From: an uncultured Poribacteria bacterium
GTDB taxonomy: Bacteria; Poribacteria; WGA-4E; WGA-3G
Assembly: GCA_951828385.1 (NCBI GenBank)
Contig: OX639973.1
Coordinates: forward strand, 1,116,001-1,180,000
Length of the DNA: 64,000 bases
Direction of reading: 5' to 3'
Notes under the pieces: generated by a model
Told to the model about the DNA's origin: nothing
Seen by the model: only the letters and a program-made list of their open reading frames with translations
Database searches by the model: none
Program-made: the position numbers and the translations under genes
Part shown: piece after piece, positions 4,504 to 63,917 of the stretch
Layout: every line of letters starts with the position of its first letter
How positions within the stretch are numbered: the stretch's first letter is position 1

Positions 4504-4517
4504 CAAAAATCTCCTTT

Positions 4518-4620
4518 TATAGTAAAGTTTAGAATTAATTGGACACTCTGCACCGGCGAGGTTAGGAAACCTCGCCTACCGGGGGATGAAAATGTCTCTT
4601 TATTTTTCGGCTTTACTATA
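4518..4620. repeat. 103-bp MITE-like palindromic element
   Basis: The ends are perfect 10-bp inverted repeats, TATAGTAAAG at 4518-4527 and CTTTACTATA at 4611-4620. Inside is a 9-bp-stem hairpin, GGCGAGGTT / AACCTCGCC with an AGGA loop (4555-4576). It fills the gap between the two pseudocaspase genes. There is no coding capacity, so it would have to be moved by a transposase elsewhere, or act as a transcript-end structure. Confidence 0.65.
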
Positions 4621-4629
4621 GATGTGGCA

Positions 4630-34380: not shown

Positions 34381-34947
34381 TTATTCAAAAAGTTGTGCGA
34401 CTTGACAGGAAAAACCTTCAACGACATCTTCACCGGTGAGTGTGTCTTCAGATGTCAGTACCTTGATGTCTATTTTAGAACGATAGACCATTACCGTCTC
34501 CGATACAGGTATGAGCACCCAGACCATCTGTGTGCCTGCTTCCAGATAGGCGAACGCCTTTTCTTCAACACGATGTAGTATATCTGTCCGAGAAACGACC
34601 TCCGCGGCTAGGTCCGGCGGTACTGGAAAAGCTTTGCTCAGGTCCTCAGGTAATTGGGCTGAAGAAATAAAAGCAATATCTGGTTTCAGGACGCGCTCTC
34701 CGACTTGAAAGCCCGTGTCAGGCGTAACCACTTCGCCGAGTTGATTCTCACGCACGTACAAACCCAAGTTCAGAAAAAGCCTGGCACTAATTATCCCATG
34801 TTCCGCAGACGCAGCCGGCATCGGTATAAGTTCCCCCTTCACATATTCGTATCCCTCCAAATCGCTCGCAAGAAATTCTTCAAGCGTCATCTTCTTGGGA
34901 GGTGGAAGTATTTCTTGGGTGACTCCATGAGCGTCTTGTTGTCCCAT
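34381..34947 (-). CDS. Uma2-family endonuclease fold protein, copy 1
   Basis: 188 aa from the second ATG (MGQQDAHGV); the first ATG sits one base after GGAGG, too close. PD-(D/E)xK fold of the Uma2 family (restriction-endonuclease-like): KPDIAFISS with the active Asp, and PDLAAEVVSRTD with the E-V-V, then KAFAYLEAGTQMVWVL. The Pro of the usual VVSP is changed to Arg here. Cellular role of Uma2 proteins is not established; they are abundant in cyanobacteria, Poribacteria-like and filamentous bacteria. Confidence 0.75.
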   Translation of the reverse strand: MGQQDAHGVTQEILPPPKKMTLEEFLASDLEGYEYVKGELIPMPAASAEHGIISARLFLNLGLYVRENQLGEVVTPDTGFQVGERVLKPDIAFISSAQLPEDLSKAFPVPPDLAAEVVSRTDILHRVEEKAFAYLEAGTQMVWVLIPVSETVMVYRSKIDIKVLTSEDTLTGEDVVEGFSCQVAQLFE

Positions 34948-34988
34948 TTTCATTCCTCCATAATTAGTTTGCCGTGTTTCAACGCCAC

Positions 34989-35555
34989 CTATTCAAAAAG
35001 TTGTGTGACTTGACATGAAAACCCTTCAACGACATCTTCACCGGTGAGCGTGTCGTTGCGTGTGAGCAATTTGATATCTGTTTCCGAACGATATACTGTC
35101 ACTGTTTTTGATCCGGGTTCAACTACCCAGACGAGACGCGTTCCCGCGTTGAGATAAGCGAACGCTTTTTCAATCACACGCCGGAAAGCATCTGATGGTG
35201 AAACCACCTCAACCGCAAGATCTGGCGGCACCGGGCATGCTCTGCTCGGATCGTCAGGCAGATGCGCTGTTGAAAGGAAGGCAACGTCCGGTTTTAGAAT
35301 GCGCTCACTGACTTGAAAACCTGTGTCTGGCGTAACCACCTCACCGAGTTGATTATCTTGTACATATAGACCTAAACGTAAGAAAACCTTGGCACAGACC
35401 AAACCGTGTTCCCAAGATGCAGCTGGCATCGGTATAAGTTCCCCCTTCACATATTCGTATCCCTCTAAATCGCTCGCAAGAAATTCTTCAAGCGTCATCT
35501 TCTTGGGAGGTGGAAGTATCTCTTGGGTGCCTACATGAGCATTTTGTTGTCCCAT
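34989..35555 (-). CDS. Uma2-family endonuclease fold protein, copy 2
   Basis: 188 aa, same start arrangement as copy 1 (MGQQNAHVGT). Motifs KPDVAFLST and PDLAVEVVSPSD, then KAFAYLNAGTRLVWVV. The first 50 residues are nearly identical to copy 1, and all three copies share the last 15 (VVEGFSCQVxQLFE), so the three are tandem duplicates, 35 to 41 bases apart, likely co-transcribed. Confidence 0.8.
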   Translation of the reverse strand: MGQQNAHVGTQEILPPPKKMTLEEFLASDLEGYEYVKGELIPMPAASWEHGLVCAKVFLRLGLYVQDNQLGEVVTPDTGFQVSERILKPDVAFLSTAHLPDDPSRACPVPPDLAVEVVSPSDAFRRVIEKAFAYLNAGTRLVWVVEPGSKTVTVYRSETDIKLLTRNDTLTGEDVVEGFSCQVTQLFE

Positions 35556-35596
35556 TTTCATTCCTCCGCGGTGAGTTTATCAAGGTTCAAATTTAT

Positions 35597-36169
35597 CTAC
35601 TCAAAAAGTTGTGCCACTTGACACGAAAAACCTTCAACGACATCTTCGCCAGTCAATGTGTCTTCAGACGTGAGCGTCTTGATGTCTGTTCGAGAACGAT
35701 ACACGGTTACCGTCTTTCCCACAGGTTCAATAATCCAGACGATTTGTGTGCCAGCATTGAGATAAGCAAACGCCTTTTCAAGAACACGATATTGAATATC
35801 TGTCGGTGAAACAACTTCAACAGCGAGATCTGGAGCTATAGGGGATGCCTGGTCCCTGTTCTCAGGTAACCTCGCTGTAGAAACAAACGCGACATCCGGT
35901 TTAACCAGTCGGTCTCCCAACTTAAAGTCTGTATCCGCCGGATATACACGTCCGAGTTGATTCTCACGAACATGCAAACTCAAAAGAAAACTGAGATTCA
36001 TACTAATTTCACCGTGTTCCATTGTCGGAGGGGCCATCGGTATTAACTTTCCTTTCGCGTATTCATATCCCTCTAAATCGCTCTCAAGAAATTCTTCCAA
36101 CGTCATATCGGTTTCCAGCGGCGCAAGGGATATTGCCGCTTGTTCATATCCATTTTTGGGAATGTCCAT
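35597..36169 (-). CDS. Uma2-family endonuclease fold protein, copy 3
   Basis: 190 aa, start MDIPKNGYEQ with GGAGAG upstream. Motifs KPDVAFVST and PDLAVEVVSPTD, then KAFAYLNAGTQIVWII. First gene of the cluster and the most different at the N-terminus. All expected PD-(D/E)xK positions are kept. Confidence 0.8.
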   Translation of the reverse strand: MDIPKNGYEQAAISLAPLETDMTLEEFLESDLEGYEYAKGKLIPMAPPTMEHGEISMNLSFLLSLHVRENQLGRVYPADTDFKLGDRLVKPDVAFVSTARLPENRDQASPIAPDLAVEVVSPTDIQYRVLEKAFAYLNAGTQIVWIIEPVGKTVTVYRSRTDIKTLTSEDTLTGEDVVEGFSCQVAQLFE

Positions 36170-46602: not shown

Positions 46603-46772
46603 AACAAAACGAACCTTTCGTTTTCTGAGATGTCTAATTCAACAAGAAGACCATTTAGTTTTCGCCTATATGCTGGGAACCGATTCGCTTCAAGCGTCAT
46701 TTCTGTCCGAAAGTCACGGCTCCCTGAGCATTGAAGAAGCACACTCTTTATCCTTGCAGTTTGGAGAAAAGC

Positions 46773-47393
46773 ATGTCCGTTGCAACCCTTACAGCAACTA
46801 TGGAAACCTATTCAGAGATGGGCAAAACCGAAGAATTGGATATTGCACAAGAACGAGAGATAGTTTTACGCTGTCAAAATGGCGATGCCGATGCGATGGG
46901 GACCCTCATCATTCAATACCAACATTGGGTGTATAACATCGCTTACAGTATGCTCGGTCATCACCACGACGCGGAAGATGTAGCACAAGATGCGTTTGTC
47001 TCTGCATGGGAAAACATCGGGAAATTTCAGTTTCGTTCCCGATTCTCGACATGGCTCTACCGCATTGTCAAGAACAAATGCCTTAACCATATTGACCAGT
47101 ACAAACGTCGAAAAACGGACCCAACAGAGATCGACGATTCACAACCGTGGGTACCGCTTGACACCGTGACCCCTGAAGAAGAAGCGTTGCGTACTGAAGA
47201 GAAAGAAATCGTCCACGCCGCGCTCGCGAAACTCAAACCCAGCTATAGAGAGATTCTGGTGCTAAGAGAACTGCGAGATATGGCTTATGAAGAAATAGCA
47301 GAAATCCTGGGATGTACCCTGGGGCGGGTCAAATCCCGTTTACATGAAGCACGGAAAGCGTTGAAAAAAGAACTGGAGCGAGTCGAGTGGTAA
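46773..47393 (+). CDS. ECF RNA polymerase sigma factor (RpoE/SigW-like)
   Basis: 206 aa from the ATG with GGAG seven bases upstream; an earlier ATG adds 14 residues. Sigma2: YNIAYSMLGHHHDAEDVAQD, AFVSAWENIGKFQFRSRFSTW, LYRIVKNKCLNHI. Sigma4: SYREILVLRELRDMAYEEIA, EILGCTLGRVKSRLHEAR. First gene of an operon with an anti-sigma factor, an RseB-like protein and two enzymes; probably envelope-stress control. Confidence 0.92.
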   Translation: MSVATLTATMETYSEMGKTEELDIAQEREIVLRCQNGDADAMGTLIIQYQHWVYNIAYSMLGHHHDAEDVAQDAFVSAWENIGKFQFRSRFSTWLYRIVKNKCLNHIDQYKRRKTDPTEIDDSQPWVPLDTVTPEEEALRTEEKEIVHAALAKLKPSYREILVLRELRDMAYEEIAEILGCTLGRVKSRLHEARKALKKELERVEW

Positions 47394-47424: not shown

Positions 47425-48192
47425 ATGAACCACAAACGCATTCAAAACGAACTATCAGCGTATTTAGATAACGCATTAACGCCAAGCAGACATGAACAGA
47501 TTGAAACACATCTCCGTTCCTGCAGTGAGTGTTCTGATATACTATCGGCGTTCGAGAAGAACCGTCAGAGGGTTGCGGACCTCTCACATCCGGTACCATC
47601 AACGCTTAAAGACGCTGTGATGGCAAAGATCCACACGCAGTTTGAAGATGAACTATCAGCCTATTTAGACAACGAATTAGCTCCCGCTGACCACCAGCGG
47701 ATTGAAGCACATCTTCACGCTTGCAGCGAGTGTTCCGGCATGCTGTCAACGTTCCGCGAAAATCGCGTGCGCATCAAAGGGCTTGAGCATCCCGCGCCGG
47801 CATCTATTCAAGATGCTGTCATGGCAACAATACGCCAACAAGCAGCAGAGACACGTGCCCAAGCACCTGCACAACCGTGGCTACCAGGTGTCGGGCAATG
47901 GCTTTCCGATTTTGGACGCTGGTTTTCTCGTCCATTAACAGCAGGCGCGACGGGGTTCTTTATGTTCGCGCTTATATTGGGCTTCCTCTATCTTTATCCA
48001 TCAACACCGGAATATGACGAAACCCTCGACTTCTACTTCGGACTTCACACCGAACAACTCGCAGACAACCCATTGAAATCAAACGTCGGTGGCTCGCTGA
48101 GTCAAACGTCGGCAGAGGATTCCTCATTTACAGAAACCGTTGACGATACTGAACTATTTCTCGACCTCTATCTCGAAAATGTAGGGGATTGA
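47425..48192 (+). CDS. Membrane anti-sigma factor with two zinc-finger (ZAS) domains
   Basis: 255 aa. Two copies of the zf-HC2/ZAS motif H-x3-C-x2-C: IETHLRSCSECS (about residue 35) and IEAHLHACSECS (about residue 100), each preceded by ELSAYLDN. One membrane segment at about 172-192 (GATGFFMFALILGFLYLYP). The C-terminal about 65 residues are acidic and outside. Binds and silences the sigma factor encoded 31 bases upstream until cleaved. Doubling of the ZAS domain is unusual. Confidence 0.88.
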   Translation: MNHKRIQNELSAYLDNALTPSRHEQIETHLRSCSECSDILSAFEKNRQRVADLSHPVPSTLKDAVMAKIHTQFEDELSAYLDNELAPADHQRIEAHLHACSECSGMLSTFRENRVRIKGLEHPAPASIQDAVMATIRQQAAETRAQAPAQPWLPGVGQWLSDFGRWFSRPLTAGATGFFMFALILGFLYLYPSTPEYDETLDFYFGLHTEQLADNPLKSNVGGSLSQTSAEDSSFTETVDDTELFLDLYLENVGD

Positions 48193-50919: not shown

Positions 50920-51338
50920 ATAGCATTAAGAAATACGCCTTCCCACACTTTCCCTTGGGCATAACCGTGATCTATGCCTTTTATTACTACATTTCCCCCA
51001 ATTTTTGGCAGAATTAGGCAACCGTTTCGTCCGTCACTCGCGTCATTATATGTGACTGACAAAATGGTTCACCTGATGTTGATGAATAAAAAGAACACAA
51101 CATCAAGGTTATTGCACAAATCCGTGCAATTTGTCATTAATGTCTGCCCCATTTGGTGCAGAGTTCCTCCAAATATTTTTATTTTCTAAAAATCGCTTAA
51201 TTCCGTGTTCAACCGACTACCAAGGCTATATTTCCCGCCTCACCATAATATCTTTCTTGGATTGGCACATAAATTGCTTATTACTTTTATGTCTGCTATT
51301 TCAAGGTAAACCTGAGAAACCTATATTAGGAGGGAAAT
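50920..51338. other. Intergenic region without a gene
   Basis: I see no gene. It has an inverted repeat TGATGTTG / CAACATCA near 51073-51112 and an AGGAGGG ribosome site (51329-51335) for the next gene. Confidence 0.5.
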
Positions 51339-52145
51339 GTGACACGATTATCCATCAGCACTATTTTCTTCAGTGCTGTTATTCTGTTAGCGATGACTGA
51401 CGCGAACGCGAGTCTTGATGAGAAGCTTGTTTTTTATCTGAACTTTGACAACGTTAAAGATCAAATGGTTGGTGATACGTCCGGCAATGGTCTTGACGCA
51501 GAGATCATTGAGAATACCAAGATTGAGAAGGGTAAATATGGGGATGCGATTCATATTACGAACAACGGACAGGACTGCGTCAACATCCCTTCCGACGAGA
51601 AGTTAAAGGTCGTAGGTGAAATAACAATGACGGCATGGATCCACTATCAAGAAACGTGGAAAGGCAAGAAAGTGCATTGGATTGATAAAGGCTGTCATTG
51701 GTTTGAAGTTGATTGGGGTGCCTCTTATGGCATCGGTAGTATCGACATCGGTACCGGGCCGGAAATCTGGTTGTTTTTGGGAGCGCGGGATGACCGTGGG
51801 ATTTCGGAGCGGCAAGAGTTCACCGTTTCGCACGAAATGAAGGAAAAACAGTGGCATCATGTCGCGGGCAGCTACGACGGAAAAACGATGAAAATCTATT
51901 TAGATGGTGAAGTCATGGGCGAAGAAAAGAGGGAATTCAACTTCGCTGGCGACAATATCGCGAGCGTCTGGATAGGATGCGCAAAAAACAAATTCGCATT
52001 TGTCAATGGTTCTATTGACGAAGCTGCTGTCTGGCAACGGGCTCTAAGTGATGACGAAATCAAGCAAGCGATGGGAGGCGATTTCCTCGCTGTTTCACCA
52101 ACCGATAAAGCAGCAACGACTTGGGCAAATATAAAAAAAAGGTAG
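51339..52145 (+). CDS. Secreted LamG-domain protein
   Basis: 268 aa. GTG start, AGGAGG upstream; the overlapping ATG two bases before is followed by TGA. Signal peptide ends ANA near residue 24. LamG/concanavalin sandwich: LVFYLNFDNVKDQMVGDTSG, VGEITMTAWIHYQE, KEKQWHHVAGSYDGKTMKIY, IDEAAVWQRALSDDEI. Likely a surface or periplasmic carbohydrate-binding module. Alone on its transcript as far as can be seen. Confidence 0.85.
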   Translation: MTRLSISTIFFSAVILLAMTDANASLDEKLVFYLNFDNVKDQMVGDTSGNGLDAEIIENTKIEKGKYGDAIHITNNGQDCVNIPSDEKLKVVGEITMTAWIHYQETWKGKKVHWIDKGCHWFEVDWGASYGIGSIDIGTGPEIWLFLGARDDRGISERQEFTVSHEMKEKQWHHVAGSYDGKTMKIYLDGEVMGEEKREFNFAGDNIASVWIGCAKNKFAFVNGSIDEAAVWQRALSDDEIKQAMGGDFLAVSPTDKAATTWANIKKR

Positions 52146-52237
52146 TATCCCTTCATAGTGAAGTGAAACGAGAAAATATGTGGATAGTTGTTTAATGAAC
52201 GGGGAAACACCCAATCAAAAACACCCTCACCACCGCT

Positions 52238-52258
52238 GGCGAGGATTGTATCCTCGCC
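52238..52258. repeat. REP-like hairpin
   Basis: GGCGAGGAT / ATCCTCGCC, 9-bp stem with a TGT loop, followed by CTACC. Same outline as the hairpins at 4555, 18984 and 22758. It lies in the 183-bp gap before the propeller gene. Confidence 0.55.
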
Positions 52259-52328
52259 TACCTTCAATGTCTAAGTAATTGTGGATTTTACAGAATGTTT
52301 GCATACCTATGATAAAAGGAGTTTTTCA

Positions 52329-53567
52329 ATGCCAAAACGGTTACCTGTAATATGGTTTGTTCTATTTTTATCATCAAATTGGATAGTATCCGTTGCCTAC
52401 ACAGCAGAACTCGAAATCGAAAAGACGTTAACCGAAACAGACGGTTTGGTATCCAATACAGTGCTGACCATTTTTGAAGACAGCCACGGCACGATGTGGT
52501 TCGGAACGACCGATGGAGTTACCCGCTATGACGGAGAGAATTTCCGAACCTTCACAACAGAAGATGGACTTGCCTGGAATACGATAGGACTCATCTTTGA
52601 AGACCAGCAAGGAATGCTTTGGTTTGCTAACGGTCTGCTCTCAAGTTTTCTGGAAAGAGGGAAGTCTATGGATATGTCTTGGATGGAAACGCCATTGAGT
52701 GAACTCGATATTACGATGTATTATGACGAAACGCCGGAAGGAATAACAAGGCCCATTCGATTGAGAGGCGTGAGTCACTACGACGGCGAAAAGTTCAGGA
52801 TTTTTACGACCGCCGACGGTCTCGCCCGCGATACTGTTAAGGATATCTTTGAAGACGAAGCTGGCACACTTTGGTTCGCGACATCGTCAGGTGTGAGTCA
52901 GTATGACGGTGAAACTTTCAACACTATCACCGTGAACGGACCAATGGGCATGGACGTATTATCCGATTGGTGGGGTCAAATCACAGCAATTGCACAAGAT
53001 ACAGTAGGCAATTTTTGGTTTGGCAGCACTGCCGGCATTACCTACTACAATGTCCAAAAGTCGCATTTCCGTTATTTTGCTGTTGACGAGGATTTCGCCC
53101 TCTTCCAAGAGATGGGGAAAACACCAACTGCAAACATAACAGATCTGCAGTTCGATGCGAAGGAGAACCTCTGGATGAGCAAAGATGGTATGGACGAGGA
53201 AGACAGCGGTATTCGTCGATACGATGGCAAAAAACTGACGATCTTCCCACAAAGTGAAGCACTCCCGATGAATAGCGTTGATAACATTATGCAGGATAGC
53301 AGCGGCAACCTCTGGTTTACCGGTGTTAAGAACCTGCCGCCGACGATAAACGAGACCGAGGAAAGCGTTAGCATGGTTTACAATGTCGTCAATGCTGGTG
53401 TGAGCGTCTATAACGGTGAGAGGTTCCAAAACTTTAACACAGACGACGGTCTACCAAGTAACCGGGTCTGGTCGGTATTTGAGGACAGCACCGGTAAACT
53501 CTGGTTCGCTACGGATGCTGGTGTTGCAGTCGGGGTTTATCTCCCCTCTCAAAATTCAGACTATTAA
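52329..53567 (+). CDS. Secreted beta-propeller of the two-component-regulator (Reg_prop) type
   Basis: 412 aa from the ATG preceded by AGGAG; signal peptide residues 1-23. Repeats of the form DGL-x-N-T-V-x-x-I-F-E-D-x-x-G-x-x-W-F-G/A-T-x-x-G-V-x-x-Y-D-G-x-x-F, at least seven by eye between residues 30 and 405. The same repeats form the periplasmic sensor of hybrid two-component systems. No kinase, no Y_Y_Y domain and no DNA-binding part are present. It is the shorter twin of the sensor half of 57941-60034. It lies 36 bases before a Ycf48-type lipoprotein gene. Confidence 0.85.
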   Translation: MPKRLPVIWFVLFLSSNWIVSVAYTAELEIEKTLTETDGLVSNTVLTIFEDSHGTMWFGTTDGVTRYDGENFRTFTTEDGLAWNTIGLIFEDQQGMLWFANGLLSSFLERGKSMDMSWMETPLSELDITMYYDETPEGITRPIRLRGVSHYDGEKFRIFTTADGLARDTVKDIFEDEAGTLWFATSSGVSQYDGETFNTITVNGPMGMDVLSDWWGQITAIAQDTVGNFWFGSTAGITYYNVQKSHFRYFAVDEDFALFQEMGKTPTANITDLQFDAKENLWMSKDGMDEEDSGIRRYDGKKLTIFPQSEALPMNSVDNIMQDSSGNLWFTGVKNLPPTINETEESVSMVYNVVNAGVSVYNGERFQNFNTDDGLPSNRVWSVFEDSTGKLWFATDAGVAVGVYLPSQNSDY

Positions 53568-53603
53568 AATCCGTTCAGTATTTTCTGGCAGGAGGCAAAA
53601 CAG

Positions 53604-56600
53604 ATGAAAAAGATTTTTCAATACATCACTTGTTTTTGGATGGTAATTCTTTTTGGACTTCCTTTCTTGGGAACCGGTTGTGTAAAAAAGGAGATTACTC
53701 GTATAGCGGACTGGCAAACCCATTTTACGGACATCTACTTTGCCGATGCCAAACACGGATGGGTTGTCGGTCATCAGGGATGGATTCTTCATACGGCTAA
53801 CGGTGGCGTGAGCTGGGAAAAACAGACGGTGAATACCAATGAGGATTTCAAAGCGGTTTATTTCACAAATCTCCGTAACGGCTGGGCAGTCGGAGATAAA
53901 GGATTAATCGCCACAACTGGTGATGGCGGACGACACTGGAGCCTTCAAAAGGATCAAGCTCCCACGCTGCTTTTGGATGTCTTTTTCACCAATTCAAAAA
54001 CAGGTTGGATTGCCGGACAGGATGGGTTGTTGTACACAAAAAATGGCGGGAAAACATGGCATCATCAGGAAGCCAGCGAATTCGGACTCGGTGGCATCCA
54101 CTTTGTAGATAAGCATCGCGGTTGGATCGTCGGAGATTATGATCGGGTCTTTGTCACTTCAGACGGCAGTCAAACTTGGCATAGACAGGATGAACTTGTG
54201 AGAATGGAACACGATACATCGGAGGTTTGTAACCTCCACACAGTATTTTTTGCGAACTCTTATAAGGGGTGGAGCGGTGGCACAGACGGCACCATTTTCC
54301 ATACGACTAACGGTGGGGCAGAATGGCAGACCCAATACAGTCGACTTCCGATGATTTACGGACATATCCGCCCAACCGTCTATGACTTCGATTTCATTAA
54401 TGATGACTACGGTGTGGCGGTTGCACAGGGTGGGTTTATCATCCGAACTGAAGATGGCGGGCAGAACTGGAAATTAACAGAAAACCAAACCAAAAACGAT
54501 CTGATGGGTGTTCATTTTGTGACTCCTAAAGAGGCATGGGCAGTTGGCTGGAACGGCACGCTCCTACACTCGACCGACGGCGGGGAAATATGGAACATGA
54601 GAAGCGGCACGACAGCCGATGACCTACAGAGTGTCGCGTTTGCGGATGCAGACCGCGCGGTTGCTGTCGGAGAGAAGGGTACAATCACCACGAGTGACGA
54701 CAGTGGTAAAACCTGGACCAACATTGAGATGGACACTTGGCACCGCATTCGGAATCTATCTTTCGTCACCGACAGAGAAGGCTGGGCGGTTGGCGATGGC
54801 GGACTCATTCTCCACACAACTGATGCCGGTCAGACGTGGGAACGACAAACCAGCGGATGGTGGTACACGCTCAATGCCCTCCATTTCATCAATCCCAAAA
54901 AGGGCTGGATCGTTGGCGATTTGGGGACCGTGCTGCATACGACAGATGGTGGTGAAACGTGGGTCCAACAAGCACCGCGCTACTTCCACGAAATGATTAA
55001 AGGCATCTTTTTCCTCAATGAGACGGAGGGGTGGGTCGTCGGTTGGCCCGGTATCGTCTTTCACACCCAAGACGGTGGATTGACATGGAAACGACAGAAC
55101 AGCAACAGTTACAATGAACTCTACGCCGCTTATTTTATCGATCAACATACCGGCTGGGTGGTCGGTCAGTTCGGCGAGATTCTACGAACGCTTGATGGTG
55201 GAAAAACGTGGAAATTCCAGCAAAGTGGGACGCAGGCAAACTTGAATAAAGTCTACTTTGCCGATGCAAATCACGGGTTAATTGTCGGCGATGAAGGTGT
55301 CATTTTGACGACTCTCAATGGGGGTGTGACCTGGGAATTGCAGAAAAGTGGCACCTCCAACGATCTCTATAGTTTCTCGCTTTCCCCTGACGGTATCCTC
55401 GTTGTGGGTGAAGGTGGTATCGCGATGCGTTACTCTGTAGATACGGAACAGTTCATTGTTGAATTACCGCCGACTGCACAAGAGATGGAAACAGTTGAAG
55501 AACCAATTGAACCAATTGACTACCATTGGGAAATTGTCCGTCAAGGAAGCTGGCAAGCCAAATTTGCTGATACCTACTTTCTGTCTGCGCAGGAAGGGTG
55601 GACAGTCGGTGACAATGGTACTATTTTACACACCACAGACAGTGGCACCACGTGGCAACCACAGCAGAGTGGCGTGACCGAAGAATTACAACGGATTGTC
55701 TTCAGCGATAAAAACCACGGCTGGATTACCGGTCAAGGCGTACTGATACGCACCGAAAATGGCGGTGAAACTTGGCAAGTCATCCGTGAAGGGTTGAAAA
55801 ACTTCCACAATATGCGTGCGATACACTTCATCAACCCGAAAGAGGGATGGATCGGCGTTGATAAAGGACAAATCCTGCGTACAAACGATGGTGGTAAAAC
55901 CTGGACGCTTCAGCAAACAGGGACAACCCAGCAACCGATCACGCACCTGCATTTTATCAATAGTAAAGAGGGATGGGCAGTCGCGCCACAACGACGAACT
56001 GGCGGGTTTATTCTGCACACGGTTGACGGCGGTGATTACTGGCAAATCCAAGCCACAACCCATCAGCGGTGCAGTGGTGTCCATTTTCTAAATGCCAAGT
56101 CGGGTTGGGTAATAATGGAAGATGGAACCTCACTTTTTACCACAGATGGCGGAGAAAATTGGAAACGGGATTTGGAAGTAGAGCAAGACATTAAAGAAAC
56201 GAATTTGGATATCCAGCTGCGCACGGTGAAGTTCCGTAATCACACCGAGGCTTGGGCAATTGATGGTGGACATAGTATTCTTACAACTCAAAACCAAGGT
56301 AAGAGTTGGGAAACAATGAATTCCGTGTATGAGGTCTATGAGAGGGAAGCTACAAACGGTGAATCGGAAAGTTGGATAGAGAGAATGGCTGCAGAACGTC
56401 CTTTCGGATTCTCATTCCAAATTACCAACGCCCATCTTTTGCCCGATGGGCACGGTTGGGTAGTCTCTGGTGAACAGATTTTTGACAGGGACTGGGCCAG
56501 GGCTGATATTGGTGGCTCCGATGAAGCAGGGGCATCTACAGGTCAGATTTACGCTACGACAGATGGCGGAAAAACTTGGCAGCATCAACTCGGTGAACTG

Positions 56601-57482
56601 CTTGATAACTTCCATGATGTGCTGTTTCTCGATGAGCAGAACGGTTGGATTGCCGGAGATAACGGAGTCTTGCTATCAACAGAAGATGACGGGGAAAATT
56701 GGAAACGGTTGCGGACCAACACAATGGACCGCATCGTCGATGTCCACTTCATCAGTCTTGAGCCAAAATGGGGCTGGGCGATGGAGAGGGATGGAACCCT
56801 GCTTTATACCATAGATGGTGAAGACTGGTCAATAGACGATAAACAGGAACTTCCAGAGCGTTTCCTACCCGATCTTCCCGGGCATAAACTACCTCCACTG
56901 TCCATAAATGAAGCTGCTTTTGGTAAGTTCTCTGAAGGGTGGGCTGTCGGTGAGAATGGAGAGATTATCCACAATCTGGATGGTGGTACGATTTGGCAGC
57001 TGCAGCGCACATCAACCGGCAAAACCCTCACAAGTATTGATATGAAATTCGCGCCCGTCGGTTGGGCTGTCGGGAGCAATGGCATTATTCAGAGAACTGT
57101 CAACGGCGGCGAGTACTGGAAGTTTCACGAAACACACACAGGCTACGACCTTCATGCCGTATCGTTTATCACGAAACGAAAAGGATGGGCAGTTGGACGT
57201 GCAGGGGTTATCCTATCCACCTCTGACGGTGGCTTCACTTGGGAGTCGGAATTGAACAAGGTATCAGAAACGCTTTACGATATTTTCGCACTCTCCGAAC
57301 AAGAAATCTACGCTGTCGGTGCCACTGGGACTATCCTTCATTCGACAGATGGCGGTGAAACGTGGAAACGGGAGCATACCGGCATTGATAATGACCTGTA
57401 TACCATCACACGTGTCAAAGATGGGGAGACGCTGTGGGTCGCTGGACAGGGCGGCGTTGTGCTGCGTCGTCCTAAACGTTAG
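53604..57482 (+). CDS. Giant Ycf48-repeat lipoprotein, copy 1
   Basis: 1292 aa, lipobox GTGC near residue 27, GGAGG upstream. About 28 repeats of the Ycf48/BNR type (GWAVGxxGxIxxTxDGGxTW), 14 before a Glu/Pro-rich linker (about residues 625-645) and 14 after it. That fits four seven-bladed propellers. Ycf48 helps assemble photosystem II; the repeat is also found in surface proteins of non-photosynthetic bacteria, which fits here. Anchored in a membrane facing outward; probably a binding scaffold. 36 bases after the propeller gene. Confidence 0.85.
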   Translation: MKKIFQYITCFWMVILFGLPFLGTGCVKKEITRIADWQTHFTDIYFADAKHGWVVGHQGWILHTANGGVSWEKQTVNTNEDFKAVYFTNLRNGWAVGDKGLIATTGDGGRHWSLQKDQAPTLLLDVFFTNSKTGWIAGQDGLLYTKNGGKTWHHQEASEFGLGGIHFVDKHRGWIVGDYDRVFVTSDGSQTWHRQDELVRMEHDTSEVCNLHTVFFANSYKGWSGGTDGTIFHTTNGGAEWQTQYSRLPMIYGHIRPTVYDFDFINDDYGVAVAQGGFIIRTEDGGQNWKLTENQTKNDLMGVHFVTPKEAWAVGWNGTLLHSTDGGEIWNMRSGTTADDLQSVAFADADRAVAVGEKGTITTSDDSGKTWTNIEMDTWHRIRNLSFVTDREGWAVGDGGLILHTTDAGQTWERQTSGWWYTLNALHFINPKKGWIVGDLGTVLHTTDGGETWVQQAPRYFHEMIKGIFFLNETEGWVVGWPGIVFHTQDGGLTWKRQNSNSYNELYAAYFIDQHTGWVVGQFGEILRTLDGGKTWKFQQSGTQANLNKVYFADANHGLIVGDEGVILTTLNGGVTWELQKSGTSNDLYSFSLSPDGILVVGEGGIAMRYSVDTEQFIVELPPTAQEMETVEEPIEPIDYHWEIVRQGSWQAKFADTYFLSAQEGWTVGDNGTILHTTDSGTTWQPQQSGVTEELQRIVFSDKNHGWITGQGVLIRTENGGETWQVIREGLKNFHNMRAIHFINPKEGWIGVDKGQILRTNDGGKTWTLQQTGTTQQPITHLHFINSKEGWAVAPQRRTGGFILHTVDGGDYWQIQATTHQRCSGVHFLNAKSGWVIMEDGTSLFTTDGGENWKRDLEVEQDIKETNLDIQLRTVKFRNHTEAWAIDGGHSILTTQNQGKSWETMNSVYEVYEREATNGESESWIERMAAERPFGFSFQITNAHLLPDGHGWVVSGEQIFDRDWARADIGGSDEAGASTGQIYATTDGGKTWQHQLGELLDNFHDVLFLDEQNGWIAGDNGVLLSTEDDGENWKRLRTNTMDRIVDVHFISLEPKWGWAMERDGTLLYTIDGEDWSIDDKQELPERFLPDLPGHKLPPLSINEAAFGKFSEGWAVGENGEIIHNLDGGTIWQLQRTSTGKTLTSIDMKFAPVGWAVGSNGIIQRTVNGGEYWKFHETHTGYDLHAVSFITKRKGWAVGRAGVILSTSDGGFTWESELNKVSETLYDIFALSEQEIYAVGATGTILHSTDGGETWKREHTGIDNDLYTITRVKDGETLWVAGQGGVVLRRPKR

Positions 57483-57711: not shown

Positions 57712-57853
57712 AATTATGTACCCTTTCTTCTTAAAAATGTGTCATTAATATAAAGTAAGGTTGGAAATTTGCGTAATTTTTTGAATTTTTTCAAATTATG
57801 TACCCTTTCTTCTTAAAAATGTGTCATTAATATAAAGTAAGGTTGGAAATTTG
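57712..57853 (+). repeat. Perfect 60-bp direct repeat (57712-57771 and 57794-57853)
   Basis: Two identical 60-base copies from AATTATGTACCC to TTGGAAATTTG, spaced 22 bases apart (period 82). Each holds ATTAATATAAAG, a possible -10 region, and AAGGTTGGAAATTTG. They lie 88 bases before the sigma-propeller gene and could be duplicated promoters or operator sites. Nothing like them precedes the first module. Confidence 0.85.
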
Positions 57854-57940: not shown

Positions 57941-60034
57941 ATGTTAGAAAATGATGTTCAATTGATTTATAGGGTTCTGTCAGGCGACGATTCGGCATTC
58001 AGCACCTTAGTTGAAAAGCATCAAAAGGGTGTTCACGCCCTCATCTGGCGGAAGATTGGTGATTTTCACCATGCCGAAGAGATCACGCAAGATACTTTCA
58101 TCCAGGTCTACAAAAAACTGGGGACTTTAAAGGATCCGAAATGTTTTTCTGGCTGGCTGTATGTTATAGCAAATCGACTTTGCCTTAATTGGCTTCAAAG
58201 GCGTAAATCCACGATGCCATCTTTGGAGGACACACCTATGGTAGAGATAGAGGAATCCTCGTATCAACATTATCTGTCGGAGCGGCGCGAGACAGAAGCC
58301 GCGGAACACCGTTCTGAAGTCGTCAAAAAGCTTTTGGAAAAGCTGCCAGAGAGCGAACGCACAGTGATGACACTCCACTATCTCGGCGAGATGACAGCTA
58401 AGGAAATTAGCAAATACTTAGGTGTGTCGGTGAGTGCAATTAAGGGACGGCTTCACCGGGGACGAGAACGTTTAAAAGCGTCAGAATCCTTGGTGAGTGA
58501 AGTGCTCGGCGGCGTTGAATTACCCGCTGATTTGACGGCACGTATCATGCGGCAGGTTGCTGATATAACCCCGGTATCTCCTCCGAGCGGAAAACCTGTG
58601 TTACCCTGGGCTGCTCTTGGGAGTGCCGCGGTCGTGATTCTGTTGATGCTGGGTATCAGTAATCAGTATCTTTCCCGTTTTCAGAAGCCGTATAGTTTTG
58701 AGGCAAGATCTGAACCCACTATCGAAATCATTGATACCGACATCGTTCTTGATACGGATGCTAAACCCGATGTTCGGAATCAGATCGGACAGACCTCTCG
58801 TCCAAGTAAGGGCAATAGTGCTGGCATGCAGCCCTCATCCAGCGATGCGGGCAGACTTCTCATAGAAAAAACAATCACCCAAGCAGATGGTTTAGCATCC
58901 AACACTGTGCTCACTATCTTTGAAGACAGTCAAGGTGCGCTATGGTTTGGCACAGCCGACGGCATCACACGTTATGACGGAGACAACTTCCAAACCTTTA
59001 CAATGGAAGATGGATTATCACGGAACACGACAGGTCTTATCTTTGAAGACCGGCAGGGCATGCTCTGGTTTGGAGATGGGATGCTCTCAAATGCGCTGAA
59101 TAGACCGAAGTTTATAGATATGTCGTATATGAATATGCCATTAAGCGAACTTGCTAATACCTTACATGACGAAACGACGATGAAAACACAGGCACCTACT
59201 CCATTAAAAGGTGTGAGTCGCTATGATGGACATGCGTTTCGGACGTTTACCATAGACGATCTCGGTACCATTAATGACCTGTTTGAGGACAAAACAGGGA
59301 CGCTTTGGTTCGCGACATGGGAGGGTGTGAATCGCTACGACGGTAAAAAGTTTAGCCGTATTATCCTCAACGGACCGACAGGGATCAAGGTCCTACCGCA
59401 TTGGTGGAATAAAGTTACAGCCATCGCACAGGATACAGCAGGAAATCTCTGGTTCGGCAGCCACGCCGGCATTACCTATTACAATGTCCAAACGTCTGAT
59501 TTCCGGTACCTTGATGTAAATTTAAACGCTTTCAAGGAGATGGGACAGTCGCAAAGCGGACAGGTGACAAACCTACAGTTTGATGCACAGGATAATCTCT
59601 GGATTACCCAAGAAGGCGTAGGTGATGAATATACTGGCATCCGTCGCTACGATGGCAAAGAATTAGTTCACTTTCCACAAAGCGAGGAACTTCCGATGAA
59701 TAAGGTTGAAAGTATCCTGCGAGATACCAACGGCAACCTCTGGTTCGCAGGTAGTAAAAGACTGCGGATAACGATTAATGTTCACGGAGCCGCGGATAGT
59801 GTGCCAATCCCTGAAGTCGGCGTTGGTGTGAGTGTGTATAACGGCGAGACGTTCCAAAACATTAACACAGACGACGGTCTACCGAGCAACCGTGTTTGGT
59901 CGGTATTTGAAGACAGCCGTGGCAAAATCTGGTTCGCTACGGATGCTGGTGCCGCAGTCGGTGTTTATTCACCCTCTCAAAAATCTCCAATATTACTCGA
60001 TCCGGTTGTAATCCCGAACTCTCGAACGCAGTAA
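57941..60034 (+). CDS. ECF sigma factor fused through one membrane segment to a propeller sensor
   Basis: 697 aa. Sigma2 at about 17-89 (HAEEITQDTFIQVYKKL, FSGWLYVIANRLCLNW); sigma4 at about 130-178 (LPESERTVMTLHYLGEMTA, KEISKYLGVSVSAIKGRL). Residues 197-207 (ADLTARIMRQV) resemble the pre-membrane part of zinc-finger anti-sigma factors, but no H-x3-C-x2-C finger is present. One membrane segment at about 221-240 (WAALGSAAVVILLMLGI), a linker, then Reg_prop propeller repeats from 306 to 690, colinear with 52329-53567. The sigma part would be cytoplasmic and the propeller outside. 22 bases before Ycf48 copy 2. Confidence 0.88.
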   Translation: MLENDVQLIYRVLSGDDSAFSTLVEKHQKGVHALIWRKIGDFHHAEEITQDTFIQVYKKLGTLKDPKCFSGWLYVIANRLCLNWLQRRKSTMPSLEDTPMVEIEESSYQHYLSERRETEAAEHRSEVVKKLLEKLPESERTVMTLHYLGEMTAKEISKYLGVSVSAIKGRLHRGRERLKASESLVSEVLGGVELPADLTARIMRQVADITPVSPPSGKPVLPWAALGSAAVVILLMLGISNQYLSRFQKPYSFEARSEPTIEIIDTDIVLDTDAKPDVRNQIGQTSRPSKGNSAGMQPSSSDAGRLLIEKTITQADGLASNTVLTIFEDSQGALWFGTADGITRYDGDNFQTFTMEDGLSRNTTGLIFEDRQGMLWFGDGMLSNALNRPKFIDMSYMNMPLSELANTLHDETTMKTQAPTPLKGVSRYDGHAFRTFTIDDLGTINDLFEDKTGTLWFATWEGVNRYDGKKFSRIILNGPTGIKVLPHWWNKVTAIAQDTAGNLWFGSHAGITYYNVQTSDFRYLDVNLNAFKEMGQSQSGQVTNLQFDAQDNLWITQEGVGDEYTGIRRYDGKELVHFPQSEELPMNKVESILRDTNGNLWFAGSKRLRITINVHGAADSVPIPEVGVGVSVYNGETFQNINTDDGLPSNRVWSVFEDSRGKIWFATDAGAAVGVYSPSQKSPILLDPVVIPNSRTQ

Positions 60035-60056: not shown

Positions 60057-63000
60057 ATGAAAAAGATATTTTACCGCCACACTCGTTCTTGGATGGTTAT
60101 TCTACTCGGAGTTTCTTGTCTGTTCACCGGTTGTGTAAAAAAGGAAATTACTCGCCAAGCAGACTGGCAAACCCATTTCACGGATATCTACTTTGCCGAT
60201 GCTAAACACGGATGGATTGTCGGGCATCACGGATGGATCCTCCATACGGCTGACGGCGGTGTGAGTTGGGAAAAACAGCCGATGAACACGCATGAGGATT
60301 TCAAAGCGGTTTATTTCACAAATCTCCGTAACGGTTGGGCGGTGGGCGACAAGGGGTTAATCGCTATTACTGATGACGGTGGGCGACACTGGACTCTTCA
60401 AAAAGGTCAAGCCCATGCGCTGCTTATGGATGTCTTTTTCACCAATTCAAAGACCGGCTGGATCGTTGGACAGAATGGGCTGCTATATACACAAAATGGT
60501 GGAAAAACATGGCACCATCAAGAAGCAATTGGAGGATTCGGACTTGGCGGTATCTGGTTCATAGACAAGCACCGCGGCTGGACAGTCGGAGATTACGACC
60601 AGATATTTGTTACCACAGACGGCAGTCAGACCTGGCGCAGACAGGATAACTTCGTGAGAGAAGATCAAACAACAACAGTTTGCAACTTCCATACGGTATT
60701 TTTTGCGACTCCTTATGAGGGGTGGAGCGGTGGCACGGACGGGACCATTTTCCACACCACCAACGGCGGCACAGAATGGCGAGGACAAGATAGTCGGCTT
60801 CCACCGGTTTACGGACATGTGCGTCCGATCGTCAATGACTTCCATTTCATTAATGATGACTACGGGGTGGCGGTCGCACAGGGTGGGTTTATCACCCGAA
60901 CCGAAGATGGTGGAGACAATTGGAGATTATCAGAAACCCCAACGAAGAACGACTTAATGGGGGTTCACTTCACAAGTCCTAAAGAGGCATGGGCAGTCGG
61001 TTGGAACGGCACGCTCTTACACTCGCCTGATGGCGGGATAACGTGGGATATGAAAAGTGGCACGACAGCTGATGATCTACAGAGTGTTGCGTTTGCGGAC
61101 GCAAACCGTGCGGTTGCTGTTGGGGAGAGAGGAACAATCACGACGAGTGACGACAGCGGTAAAACTTGGACGAACATTGAGATGGACACCTGGCACCGTA
61201 TCCGGAATCTATCTTTCGTCACCGACAGAGAAGGCTGGGCGGTTGGCGATGGCGGACTCATCCTCCACACAACCGATGCCGGTCAGACGTGGGAACGGCA
61301 AACCAGCGGATGGTGGTACACGCTCAATGCCCTCCATTTCATCAATCCCAAAAAGGGCTGGATCGTTGGAGATTTGGGGACCGTGCTGCATACAACAGAC
61401 GGTGGCGAAACGTGGGTCCAACAAGCACCACGCTACTTCCACGAAATGATTAAAGGCATCTTTTTCCTCAACGAGACGGAGGGGTGGGTCGTCGGTTGGC
61501 CCGGTATCGTCTTTCACACCGAAGACGGTGGACTGACGTGGAAACGGCAGAATAGCAACAGTTTCAACGAACTCTACGCCGCTTATTTCATCGACAAACA
61601 TATCGGCTGGGTCGTTGGGCAATTCGGTGAAATTTTACACACGCTCGATGGCGGAAAAACGTGGAAATTCCAGCAAAGTGGGACGCAGGCGAATCTGAAC
61701 AAAGTCTACTTTGCAGATGCAAATCACGGGTTAATTGTCGGCGATGAAGGGGTCATTTTAACGACTATCAATGGGGGTGTGACGTGGGAATTACAGAAAA
61801 GCGGCACGTCCAACGATCTCTACAGTTTCTCGCTTTCTCCGGATGGTATCCTCGTTGTGGGTGAAGGTGGCATTGCGATGCGTTACTCCGTGGACACGGA
61901 GCAGTTCATTGTCGAATTGCCGCCCGCTGCGCAAGAAATGGAAACCGATGAGAAACCGATTGAACCCATTGAATATCACTGGGAGATTGTGCGTCAAGGG
62001 GCTTGGCAAACCTATTTCACTGATACCTACTTCTTATCTACGCAAGAGGGATGGGCAGTGGGTGGTAACGGGACTATTTTGCACACCACAAACGGTGGCA
62101 AAACATGGCAGCTGCAACAAAGTGGCGTGACGGAAGCGTTACAGCGCATTGTTTTCGTTGATGAAAACCACGGTTGGATTGGTGGACAAGGTGTACTCTT
62201 ACGCACCGAAAACAGAGGCAAGACGTGGCAGGTTATTCGCGAAAGTTTGCAACCTTCGCGTTCAGACGCGCGACCCTACGGCAGTATTCGTGCCATCCAC
62301 TTCATTAACCCAAAACAGGGATGGATCGGCGTTGATAGAGGACAAATTCTGCGTACAACCGATGGCGGTAAAACTTGGACCCCTCAGCAAACCGGCGCAA
62401 CACAGCAGTCAATTACGGACTTGCATTTTATTAATAGCAAAGAGGGTTGGGCAGTAGCACCACAACGGCGGACTGGCGGATTGATTCTACACACGGTTGA
62501 CGGTGGGGACTATTGGGAGATTCAAGCCAGGACTCACCAACGCTGCATCGGTGTTCATTTCCTAAATACCACATCCGGTTGGGCGGTGATGGAAAACGGG
62601 ACCTCGCTACTGACCTCAGATGGCGGAGAGAGCTGGAAACGGGATCTGGAAGCAGAACGAAAGATTAAGGGAACGTATTTGGACATCCAGCTGCAGACCG
62701 TGAAATTCCGAAATCACACCGAAGCGTGGGGAATTGGTGTTGGTGGGATGATTCTCACCACACAGAACCAAGGTAAAAACTGGGAGTCGCTCCATACCTC
62801 GTCCAGAGGTGAAACTGAGAACACTGAACCTGTAAGTTGGGTAGATAGAATGGCACGAGAACAATCCGACTCACTCTTGACCGAAATTACCAATGCCTAT
62901 TTTCTGGCAGATGGACACGGTTGGGCTGTCGGTGCGGAGCGGATTTACGAAAGGGACGTGTATCGAGTCGACTCTGGTGGAACTGAGAAGGCACAAAAAT

Positions 63001-63917
63001 CCGGCGGCCAGATTTACGCCACCACAGATGGCGGCAAAACCTGGCACCACCAATTTGGCGAACCCCCCGATAACCTCCGGGATGTGATCTTTCTCGACGA
63101 GCAAAACGGTTGGATTGCCGGAGATAACGGAATTTTACTGTCAACAGAGGACGGTGGAGAAAATTGGAAGCGTTTGGAGAGCGGCACCATAGACCGTATT
63201 GTTGATGTCTATTTCATCAGTCTTGATCCGAAATGGGGCTGGGCCATGAAACGCGACGGGGGCATGCTTTACACAGCGAACGGTGAGGACTGGTCAACAG
63301 AAAACAACCAAGAACTCCCTCAAGGCTTTGACATATCCATAAATGAGGTTGCCTTCGGCAATTTTTCCGAAGGATGGGCTGTCGGTGAGAATGGAGATAT
63401 TCTTCACAATCTGGACGGCGGTCCAATTTGGAAATTTCAGCGCACGTCAACCGGTAAAAACCTCACAGGCATTGATATGAAGTTCGCATCGCTCGGTTGG
63501 GCGGTTGGGACCAACGGGGTCATCCAGAGAACCGTCAACGGTGGCGAATACTGGAAATTCCATGAGACACACGCCGGCTACGACCTTCATGGCGTATCAT
63601 TCATCACCAAACGGAAAGGATGGGCAGTCGGACGTGCCGGGATTATCCTATCTACTTCTGACGGTGGATTTACTTGGGAGTCAAAGTTGAGCGGTATGTC
63701 GGAAACGCTTTACGATATTTTGGCACTCTCCGAACAAGAAATCTACGCTGTTGGTGCCGCTGGAACCATCCTTCATTCGACAGATGGCGGTGAAACGTGG
63801 GAACAGGAGCATACCGGTGTTAACAATGACCTGTATACCATCACGCGCGTCAAAGATGGTGAGACGTTATGGGTTGTTGGACAGGGCGGCATCGTGCTGC
63901 GTCGCCCTAAGCGTTGA
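60057..63917 (+). CDS. Giant Ycf48-repeat lipoprotein, copy 2
   Basis: 1286 aa, lipobox FTGC, GGAG before the ATG. Same plan as 53604-57482: about 28 Ycf48-type repeats in two blocks of 14. The region 61070-61930 is nearly identical at DNA level to 54620-55470, while flanks are clearly more diverged; a few short insertions differ (for example RSDARPYGSIR). Likely works with the sigma-propeller protein encoded 22 bases upstream. Confidence 0.85.
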   Translation: MKKIFYRHTRSWMVILLGVSCLFTGCVKKEITRQADWQTHFTDIYFADAKHGWIVGHHGWILHTADGGVSWEKQPMNTHEDFKAVYFTNLRNGWAVGDKGLIAITDDGGRHWTLQKGQAHALLMDVFFTNSKTGWIVGQNGLLYTQNGGKTWHHQEAIGGFGLGGIWFIDKHRGWTVGDYDQIFVTTDGSQTWRRQDNFVREDQTTTVCNFHTVFFATPYEGWSGGTDGTIFHTTNGGTEWRGQDSRLPPVYGHVRPIVNDFHFINDDYGVAVAQGGFITRTEDGGDNWRLSETPTKNDLMGVHFTSPKEAWAVGWNGTLLHSPDGGITWDMKSGTTADDLQSVAFADANRAVAVGERGTITTSDDSGKTWTNIEMDTWHRIRNLSFVTDREGWAVGDGGLILHTTDAGQTWERQTSGWWYTLNALHFINPKKGWIVGDLGTVLHTTDGGETWVQQAPRYFHEMIKGIFFLNETEGWVVGWPGIVFHTEDGGLTWKRQNSNSFNELYAAYFIDKHIGWVVGQFGEILHTLDGGKTWKFQQSGTQANLNKVYFADANHGLIVGDEGVILTTINGGVTWELQKSGTSNDLYSFSLSPDGILVVGEGGIAMRYSVDTEQFIVELPPAAQEMETDEKPIEPIEYHWEIVRQGAWQTYFTDTYFLSTQEGWAVGGNGTILHTTNGGKTWQLQQSGVTEALQRIVFVDENHGWIGGQGVLLRTENRGKTWQVIRESLQPSRSDARPYGSIRAIHFINPKQGWIGVDRGQILRTTDGGKTWTPQQTGATQQSITDLHFINSKEGWAVAPQRRTGGLILHTVDGGDYWEIQARTHQRCIGVHFLNTTSGWAVMENGTSLLTSDGGESWKRDLEAERKIKGTYLDIQLQTVKFRNHTEAWGIGVGGMILTTQNQGKNWESLHTSSRGETENTEPVSWVDRMAREQSDSLLTEITNAYFLADGHGWAVGAERIYERDVYRVDSGGTEKAQKSGGQIYATTDGGKTWHHQFGEPPDNLRDVIFLDEQNGWIAGDNGILLSTEDGGENWKRLESGTIDRIVDVYFISLDPKWGWAMKRDGGMLYTANGEDWSTENNQELPQGFDISINEVAFGNFSEGWAVGENGDILHNLDGGPIWKFQRTSTGKNLTGIDMKFASLGWAVGTNGVIQRTVNGGEYWKFHETHAGYDLHGVSFITKRKGWAVGRAGIILSTSDGGFTWESKLSGMSETLYDILALSEQEIYAVGAAGTILHSTDGGETWEQEHTGVNNDLYTITRVKDGETLWVVGQGGIVLRRPKR

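Follow-up and report, generated by a model that had tools for sequence, protein, structure and literature searches.

A sigma factor joined to a transmembrane helix and a beta-propeller in Poribacteria, and its family of proteins with varied ectodomains

Extracytoplasmic function (ECF) sigma factors normally require a partner anti-sigma factor for sensing the outside, and hybrid two-component sensors are recognised by a Y_Y_Y domain, a histidine kinase and a receiver. In IutY of Pseudomonas putida, a sigma/anti-sigma fusion, the periplasmic anti-sigma domain is FecR-like. In this study we analyse a stretch of 64,000 nucleotides from an uncultured Poribacteria bacterium (assembly GCA_951828385.1, contig OX639973.1, positions 1,116,001 to 1,180,000, forward strand), called the window below and numbered from its first letter. 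Its gene 57941-60034 encodes in one uninterrupted frame ECF sigma regions 2 and 4, one membrane segment and a propeller, as a sequence-only reading had described and as the open reading frame (ORF), Pfam, hydropathy and AlphaFold2 (AF2) now agree. On balance we favour the view that the product is a one-piece transmembrane ECF sigma receptor, which would be released by intramembrane proteolysis and feed an autoregulated regulon, with release, ligand and sigma activity being predictions of our analysis.

Several described systems, given here after excerpts of the cited papers, resemble this protein in part. IutY (ECF243) likewise holds a cytosolic ECF sigma factor and a periplasmic part in one polypeptide, but what it has in the periplasm is an anti-sigma domain that belongs to siderophore cell-surface signalling, and IutY is called unique in P. 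putida, unlike the apparent head-swapping array of Poribacteria (PMC8999054). No Pfam match to an anti-sigma domain of this kind is found in the 57941-60034 protein up to E 1, and the propeller stands there instead. ECF52 (SCO4117), ECF48 and ECF53 of Actinobacteria also join sigma to a transmembrane helix, with ECF52 adding an outside carbohydrate-binding domain, and proteolytic release has been proposed for these groups (PMC5826349, PMC8999054). Their arrangement of a transmembrane helix after the sigma domain, followed by an outside part, is shared by the 57941-60034 protein; in these groups, however, sigma and the helix are still separated by a zinc finger, which the Poribacteria family is without, and ECF52 is described as exclusive to Actinobacteria, with SCO4117 as sole member in S. 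coelicolor. The family is therefore filed with neither ECF52 nor IutY, because it has neither the zinc finger and taxon of the former nor the anti-sigma domain of the latter. The SigI/RsgI systems of Clostridium thermocellum are alike in their paralogous sigma circuits, variable sensory ectodomains, autoregulation and RseP step, but sigma and sensor are separate proteins, with nine RsgI and a sigma-I without sigma4, and the first cut is an autoproteolysis of an outside domain (PMC12203970, PMC6056542). The 57941-60034 protein is a single polypeptide, and its outside segment of about 40 residues is disordered in the AF2 model. ECF57 proteins with WD40 extensions also combine an ECF sigma factor with propeller-forming repeats, but these repeats serve protein interaction, a sigma2-sigma4 cysteine pair is present, and the excerpted description mentions no transmembrane helix (PMC8999054). 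Finally, hybrid two-component systems of the BT4663 type place a Reg_prop propeller outside the membrane as well, whereas the 57941-60034 protein has no kinase or receiver and its output is a sigma factor.

In the Pfam scan, the 57941-60034 protein matches Sigma70_r2 (E 1.5e-13), Sigma70_r4_2 (E 5.6e-16) and, in five stretches, Reg_prop (1.8e-32); according to Pfam, AF2 and PDB, sigma2 and sigma4 are its sole sigma regions, as in ECF sigma factors. The scan does not list zf-HC2, in agreement with the earlier statement that the zinc finger is missing, and Y_Y_Y, histidine kinase and receiver domains are absent up to E 1. Hydropathy gives a single hydrophobic segment, aa 221-239, with a Kyte-Doolittle value of 2.18. 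By sequence search of PDB, the sigma part is connected with SigW (5wuq, 4.9e-22) and the propeller with the hybrid two-component sensor 4a2l (2.5e-32). The propeller is modelled in full-length AF2 mostly with a predicted local distance difference test (pLDDT) of 73-94, weaker at about 381-420, 471-490, 531-540 and 611-620, and Foldseek places it in PDB nearest to chains of BT4663, a hybrid two-component sensor for heparin (E 4.9e-16; TM-scores at most 0.36, measured against the whole 697 aa), confirming the propeller type first read from the letters. Because the sigma part of this model is poor and the mean pLDDT is 59, aa 1-300 were modelled separately. In the separate model sigma2 and sigma4 reach pLDDT 75-94, the linker forms helices at 183-189 and 196-207, helix 223-244 appears at low confidence, and the outside segment is disordered.

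The fusion itself is under coding constraint and is no assembly error. The propeller alone was searched in 58 genomes of the taxonomic family, of which 29 match at 1e-30, and intact sigma-propeller fusions are present in six: G000, G006 and G008 (697 aa each), G001 (700 aa), G082 (667 aa) and G077 (679 aa), with the genes of loci L179 and L180 being those of G006 and G082, each counted once. The frame break between sigma4 and propeller, or the always-split homologues, that the sequence-only reading had named as dangers are thus ruled out. G005 has a listed frame of 1725 aa, and the module is absent from its examined stretch; a further 21 of the 29 genomes have frames of 96-480 aa, too short for a fusion as judged by frame length only. 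Of 15 segment comparisons with G006, G008 and L180, one was saturated and the other 14 gave a dN/dS below 0.5. All 7 fused loci examined also have a free Reg_prop form no more than 10 kb away from the fusion. Many free Reg_prop matches in G009, G080, G074, G082 and other genomes hold one TAG inside, probably from alignments overrunning the gene end.

The gene belongs to a large family within its own genome. A query of aa 1-310 finds 97 places, of which 74 form one close set (at least 164 bits) and the rest stay at 92 bits or below. Hydropathy recognises a transmembrane helix in 54 of the 74, and members 32 and 52 fall below the cut-off yet align with the module; the profile A1, made of aa 180-300 alone from 34 members, gives 56 matches. 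The shared module reads sigma2-sigma4-LTENIMREI-KPxxPW-transmembrane helix-GxxQYLxRFQxPYSFxAxSExTVEIIDAPIVL-KPxxRxQxG. Among 54 members the mean pairwise identity is 0.68 in sigma2, 0.70 in sigma4, 0.39 in the transmembrane helix, 0.64 in the outside juxtamembrane segment (aa 243-268) and 0.26 in the spacer, so the juxtamembrane segment is better conserved than the helix despite differing heads. The 25 residues before and after the helix hold on average 3.28 and 1.77 K+R (53 members), a bias that fits sigma on the inside. The zf-HC2 domain is not found inside family genes: the genome's 7 matches, in six genes, all adjoin sigma genes outside the family, as the zf-HC2 gene 47425-48192 in the window follows the sigma gene 46731-47393. 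In addition, twelve sigma-transmembrane genes stand in the same orientation in the roughly 50 kb of G000:C1:1522860-1573145 (in L043-L046).

By BLAST clustering the ectodomains of 56 members fall into 13 sequence classes, named from Pfam scans of representatives only: 25 are sortilin/BNR-like, 15 WD40, 4 leucine-rich repeat (LRR), 3 of one unknown class, part of which recurs in m42 (assigned here to WD40), and nine are singletons, including Reg_prop, Kelch, M16-like, carboxypeptidase-regulatory and PD40. Several of these classes are propellers and may be distant kin. The sigma-propeller pairing taken earlier as the unit is real, but the unit is better seen as a sigma-transmembrane-juxtamembrane cassette, sometimes with its promoter, joined to 13 ectodomain classes in this genome.

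Across the phylum, profile A1 matches 67 of 84 genomes, with copy numbers ranging from 1 to at least 61: 38 of 38 in the genus, 18 of 18 in genus g8, 2 of 2 in g7 and 9 of 14 in the order's remaining families (1-3 copies each), with 0 of 12 beyond the order. Named loci, from the best 80 of 139 relatives, are Poribacteria in all 79 distinct cases, and outside the phylum a pattern scan only was made. The heads in other families of the order look BNR-, WD40- and carboxypeptidase-regulatory-like by eye; since these copies already carry differing heads, head diversity seems to predate the expansion. One of the module copies in these families, G035:C17 (L258), comes close to the similarity of genus-level copies (E 9e-50), from horizontal transfer or a contaminant contig.

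Upstream of the family genes we find a common ECF-like -35/-10 pair with the consensus aATTATGCAaCnTT - 11 to 13 - nGCGTCacTAan. Sites scoring at least 16 lie within 300 nt of 58 of 74 family genes by a matrix trained on the same family sites that it scores, where 370 dinucleotide shuffles reach at most 14.3, and 0 of 23 other sigma genes reach 12 in that distance. Among genes outside the training, the promoter precedes 39 of 85 in named Poribacteria loci (some being orthologues) and 3 of 3 in genus g7. Of the 80 sites in the stretches scanned in the own genome, 62 lie no more than 700 nt from a family gene (59 genes in all), 1 precedes another sigma gene and 17 are elsewhere. The shared motif that the earlier reading proposed to look for is present in the window as three sites, two before the fusion gene and one before the operon of the free propeller (Table 1). 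ECF sigma factors recognise an ECF-type promoter, often their own, and the two copies before the fusion gene are candidates for such recognition. Two promoter copies precede the fusion in G006/L179 and in G008, one in L180, and G006 and G008 have an additional site directly before the free Reg_prop gene. In other families a -10-like TGCGTCATTATA stands with a different -35, by eye only.

Degenerate IUPAC patterns recovered at most 51 of the 80 sites, and then with many chance matches expected, and were dropped for R1, a sequence-only covariance model of the promoter. R1 gives 117 matches at E of at most 5 in the own genome, with rough E-values and with 150 candidates scored out of 2403. With the cut-off at E 0.05 it finds 110, 81, 53, 36 and 14 sites in five module-bearing genomes, and 0, 1, 0, 0, 0 and 0 in six genomes without the module. 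Among 36 further R1 sites opened, one (L300) precedes family member 29 and 3 are without ORF, several gene picks being doubtful; the first gene is a head homologue by BLAST in L289, L293, L298, L302 and L304, and others resemble ABC transporter parts and a STAS protein by eye. The promoter thus precedes a wider gene set, many for secreted or membrane proteins.

In the proposed mechanism the membrane tether would keep sigma away from RNA polymerase, a cue at the ectodomain would expose the common juxtamembrane segment, a periplasmic protease would trim this segment to a short stub, and an RseP-like M50 protease would cut the transmembrane helix. The freed sigma could then direct transcription of its own gene, of the BNR lipoprotein gene behind it and of the regulon of the family, forming a positive loop, and the common segment may be a shared gate that lets different heads plug in. 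Proteolytic release is favoured because IutY, the nearest tested precedent, is processed by Prc and RseP, its periplasmic part being trimmed to about 50 residues before RseP cuts (PMC5411451); the conserved outside segment of the family has about 40 residues. Two M50 protease genes, one with a frame of 570 aa and the other small, and three S41 matches are present in the genome.

Several observations weigh against this proposal. It is derived from sequence, with ligand binding, cleavage and sigma activity predicted, and M50 and S41 proteases, found in 14 of 14 and 10 of 14 control genomes, are so widespread that their presence says little. Neither AF2 model docks the linker on sigma with confidence, and the 57941-60034 protein itself is without charge bias, with K+R of 3/3 before and after its helix. 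Tethering is not general, since 18 of the 74 members have sigma without the module. The promoter is absent within 300 nt of 16 of 74 family genes, is missing in the named loci before 46 of 85 genes, and precedes none of the 14 genes taken from the order's other families; five of the 17 sites elsewhere have no ORF by the rule used; the motif is imperfectly specific, one non-family sigma gene having a site of score 39.7 at 425 nt upstream; and the site at window 8614 (+), scoring 20.7 with no clear gene behind, is probably due to chance. Sigma and promoter correlate with r 0.18 at the -35 and 0.35 at the -10, compared with 0.38 in the flanks, and with -0.01 and 0.23 in pairs with unrelated flanks; since the correlation is equally strong for the flanks, this covariation is inseparable from common descent. 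No weight is placed on a Fisher test made post hoc between a single position of the sigma4 helix and a single base of the -35 (p 1.6e-5), whose counts were taken by eye and not corrected for phylogeny.

The module also appears to have moved between heads. In a quick tree of aa 1-290, the 13 head labels need 18 changes, where 12 is the least possible and shuffling gives a mean of 28, and the starred branches alone force at least 4 changes for BNR and at least 4 for WD40. Comparison of 143 cassettes gives 88 pairs at least 88% identical over at least 560 of the first 640 bases, with mosaics flagged by a rule of thumb and not a statistical test, and 7 pairs picked from it were profiled besides window/L180. 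The window and L180 are 0.82-1.00 identical in DNA from about -240 to about +650, covering promoter, sigma and linker, then mostly 0.5-0.85 through transmembrane helix and head, and 0.3-0.5 upstream and past the stop; dS is 0.05 in sigma and 1.40 in the propeller. Between m9 (M16-like head) and L229 (LRR and GHL15-like head), identity is 0.83-0.95 from about -40 to about +800 and at background elsewhere, and L224 (M16-like) shows the same mosaic against L229; these are the only shown pairs joining different head classes, and m9 and L224 remain similar into the head. In m8/L251, m39/m42, m34/m41 and m2/L198 the near-identical block ends at about +800 to +980 and the homologous heads, partly shared in m39/m42, are far more diverged. 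The promoter is inside the block in window/L180 and m8/L251 only. Such cassettes, 83-100% identical in DNA on strongly diverged heads with sharp breakpoints, are best explained by recombination.

New heads may have been captured from neighbouring secreted genes, with the transmembrane helix replacing the signal peptide. Sigma-less head homologues often start hydrophobic, by hydropathy only and no signal-peptide predictor, and one lies on the same strand within 3.5 kb of 12 of 56 family genes, compared with 2.2 expected from neighbourhoods of a different class. By class these are LRR 4/4, Kelch, M16, U15, carboxypeptidase-regulatory and PD40 1/1 each, and WD40 3/15, with none in BNR (0/25), U38 (0/3), Reg_prop, U27, U31 and U60 (0/1 each); the window's own pair, 4.4 kb apart, counts as a miss, and the largest class, BNR, gives no support for capture. 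We propose tentatively, as a possible rather than a probable extension, that the cassette, at times with its promoter, recombines between heads within and between genomes, giving at least 50 one-protein receptors per cell that converge on one promoter class, with captured secreted propeller, LRR, Kelch or peptidase genes as new inputs and the juxtamembrane segment as universal gate. The proposal is weakened because only one mosaic set joins different head classes, the others having diverged heads of the same class or partly shared ones.

The same neighbouring homologues would suit a different account, in which the ectodomain is a working surface protein, the cassette an anchor with a self-activating promoter, and recombination varies the surface, a copy once on staying on. 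The fused form standing in for the signal-peptide form at the window locus, and the promoter lying before the fusion gene itself, agree with such display; we judge it unlikely, as the juxtamembrane segment is conserved beyond the needs of an anchor, and the promoter also precedes ABC-transporter-like and other genes and therefore points to a regulon. Quite unlikely, too, is activation without cleavage, where the membrane-bound sigma would bind RNA polymerase after a conformational change through the helix, like membrane one-component regulators. The single transmembrane helix with its conserved linker, and the lack of an anti-sigma domain needing destruction, are consistent with it, but IutY, called the one tethered ECF experimentally characterised, is released by proteolysis in the excerpted account (PMC8999054), and the conserved outside segment suits a protease or gate better.

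It is very improbable that the family is a neutral by-product, a selfish sigma/promoter cassette recombining onto neighbours with a functionless sensor link. The mosaics would allow it, and so would the joining of this sigma subfamily to other partners (DnaN, thioredoxin-like, methyltransferase and peptidase domains), but dN/dS is below 0.5 in all 14 scored segment comparisons of the fusion gene and the module is present in 38 of 38 and 18 of 18 genomes of two genera. Ten of the 18 module-less members were scanned, with for example a DnaN beta clamp, AhpC/TSA with TPR, methyltransferase, and S9 or M61 peptidase found. At L087:13213-14937 (-), the frame of an ECF sigma continues into an entire DNA polymerase III beta clamp with three DNA_pol3_beta domains, and family member 71 in L084 clusters with it. 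L086, L085, L068, L090 and L066 have the same sigma subfamily, without transmembrane helix by hydropathy, fused to AhpC/TSA thioredoxin-like and TPR, methyltransferase, M61 and S9 peptidase and a second helix-turn-helix domain. An assembly error or broken frame behind the fusion, to which the fused frame of G062, lacking most of sigma2, and the split frame of L275 might point, is refuted by the six genomes with intact fusions and is practically out of the question.

The features of the locus are collected in Table 1. Operon 51339-57482 is a sister copy of the fusion operon, and the gene order laminin G, free Reg_prop, BNR protein, sigma-transmembrane-Reg_prop, BNR protein is kept in G006 and G008. 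In G008 the tandem promoters are separated from the fusion gene by an additional ORF (L277:7384-8649, 421 aa) that looks TnpB-like by eye. The BNR protein of gene 60057 has what we take to be a lipobox-like start. Elsewhere in the window, 34381-36169 (-) holds three tandem, very similar ORFs of 190 aa, presumably Uma2-like, and 2821-6294 (-) a pair of adjoining ORFs (561 and 554 aa) that resemble one another, start hydrophobic and, by eye, each seem to contain an internal duplication.

Table 1. Coordinates of the fusion gene, its promoters and the neighbouring genes in the window (AF2, AlphaFold2; aa, residues of the 697-aa protein unless given as a length)
Feature	Coordinates	Strand	Evidence or remark
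Like promoter before operon 51339-57482	51012..51050	+	score 31.0; R1 E 2.3e-4
Laminin_G_3 (concanavalin-like) protein, hydrophobic N-terminus, first gene of operon	51339..52145	+	
Free Reg_prop protein, signal-peptide-like start, probably from 52329	52281..53567	+	ectodomain homologue, 63% identity
Paralogue of 60057 BNR protein	53604..57482	+	
ECF-type promoter copy 1 (AATTATGTACCC...TGTGTCATTAAT)	57712..57749	+	two-block matrix score 31.8; R1 E 6.7e-5
ECF-type promoter copy 2, identical to copy 1 and 82 nt 3' of it	57794..57831	+	score 31.8; R1 E 6.7e-5
Sigma-transmembrane-propeller gene	57941..60034	+	ATG start, 697 aa, single ORF, no internal stop
Sigma region 2, aa 23-90	58007..58210	+	PF04542; AF2 block pLDDT 83-92
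Sigma region 4, aa 128-178	58322..58474	+	PF08281; AF2 block pLDDT 75-94
Cytoplasmic linker, aa 181-221	58481..58603	+	two short helices, LTxxIMRxI...KPxxPW motif, zinc finger absent
Transmembrane helix, aa 223-244	58607..58672	+	hydropathy; AF2 helix, pLDDT about 45
Conserved outside juxtamembrane segment, aa 245-284	58673..58792	+	RFQxPYSFxAxSExTxEIIDxxIVL..KPxxRxQxG
Variable spacer, aa 285-303	58793..58849	+	identity 0.26 over aa 285-300
Reg_prop beta-propeller ectodomain, aa 304-680	58850..59980	+	PF07494; AF2; Foldseek
YCF48/BNR-repeat protein gene, 1286 aa, 22 nt 3' of fusion stop	60057..63917	+	PF14870 5.4e-130

A one-piece sigma/sensor is not itself new, because IutY and the ECF52 protein SCO4117 are already characterised examples of tethered ECFs with outside parts. 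Neither a description of the family nor a large head-swapping ECF array without anti-sigma domain was found in our literature searches, outside whose scope lay closed-licence papers, preprints, supplements and ECF classification papers. In excerpts, Kamke 2014 (PMC3909097) describes numerous transmembrane helices and signal peptides among the repeat proteins of Poribacteria; neither its main-text excerpts nor those of PMC5087111 contain the word 'sigma'.

In this family, sensing and transcription are apparently joined in one chain without anti-sigma domain, and copies reach at least 61 in a genome. Poribacteria are an uncultured lineage known from marine sponges, and such a cell may read many outside cues via single-protein switches by the mechanism proposed here. 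If heads are exchanged as proposed, the family would resemble chemoreceptor arrays in a one-component form, with many inputs leading to one output, and might serve for reading a sponge host. The truncated sigma and the defined promoter are ready parts that can be tried directly in E. coli, and the family makes testable how new transmembrane receptors originate by cassette exchange, how one juxtamembrane segment may serve different sensors, and what these bacteria sense.

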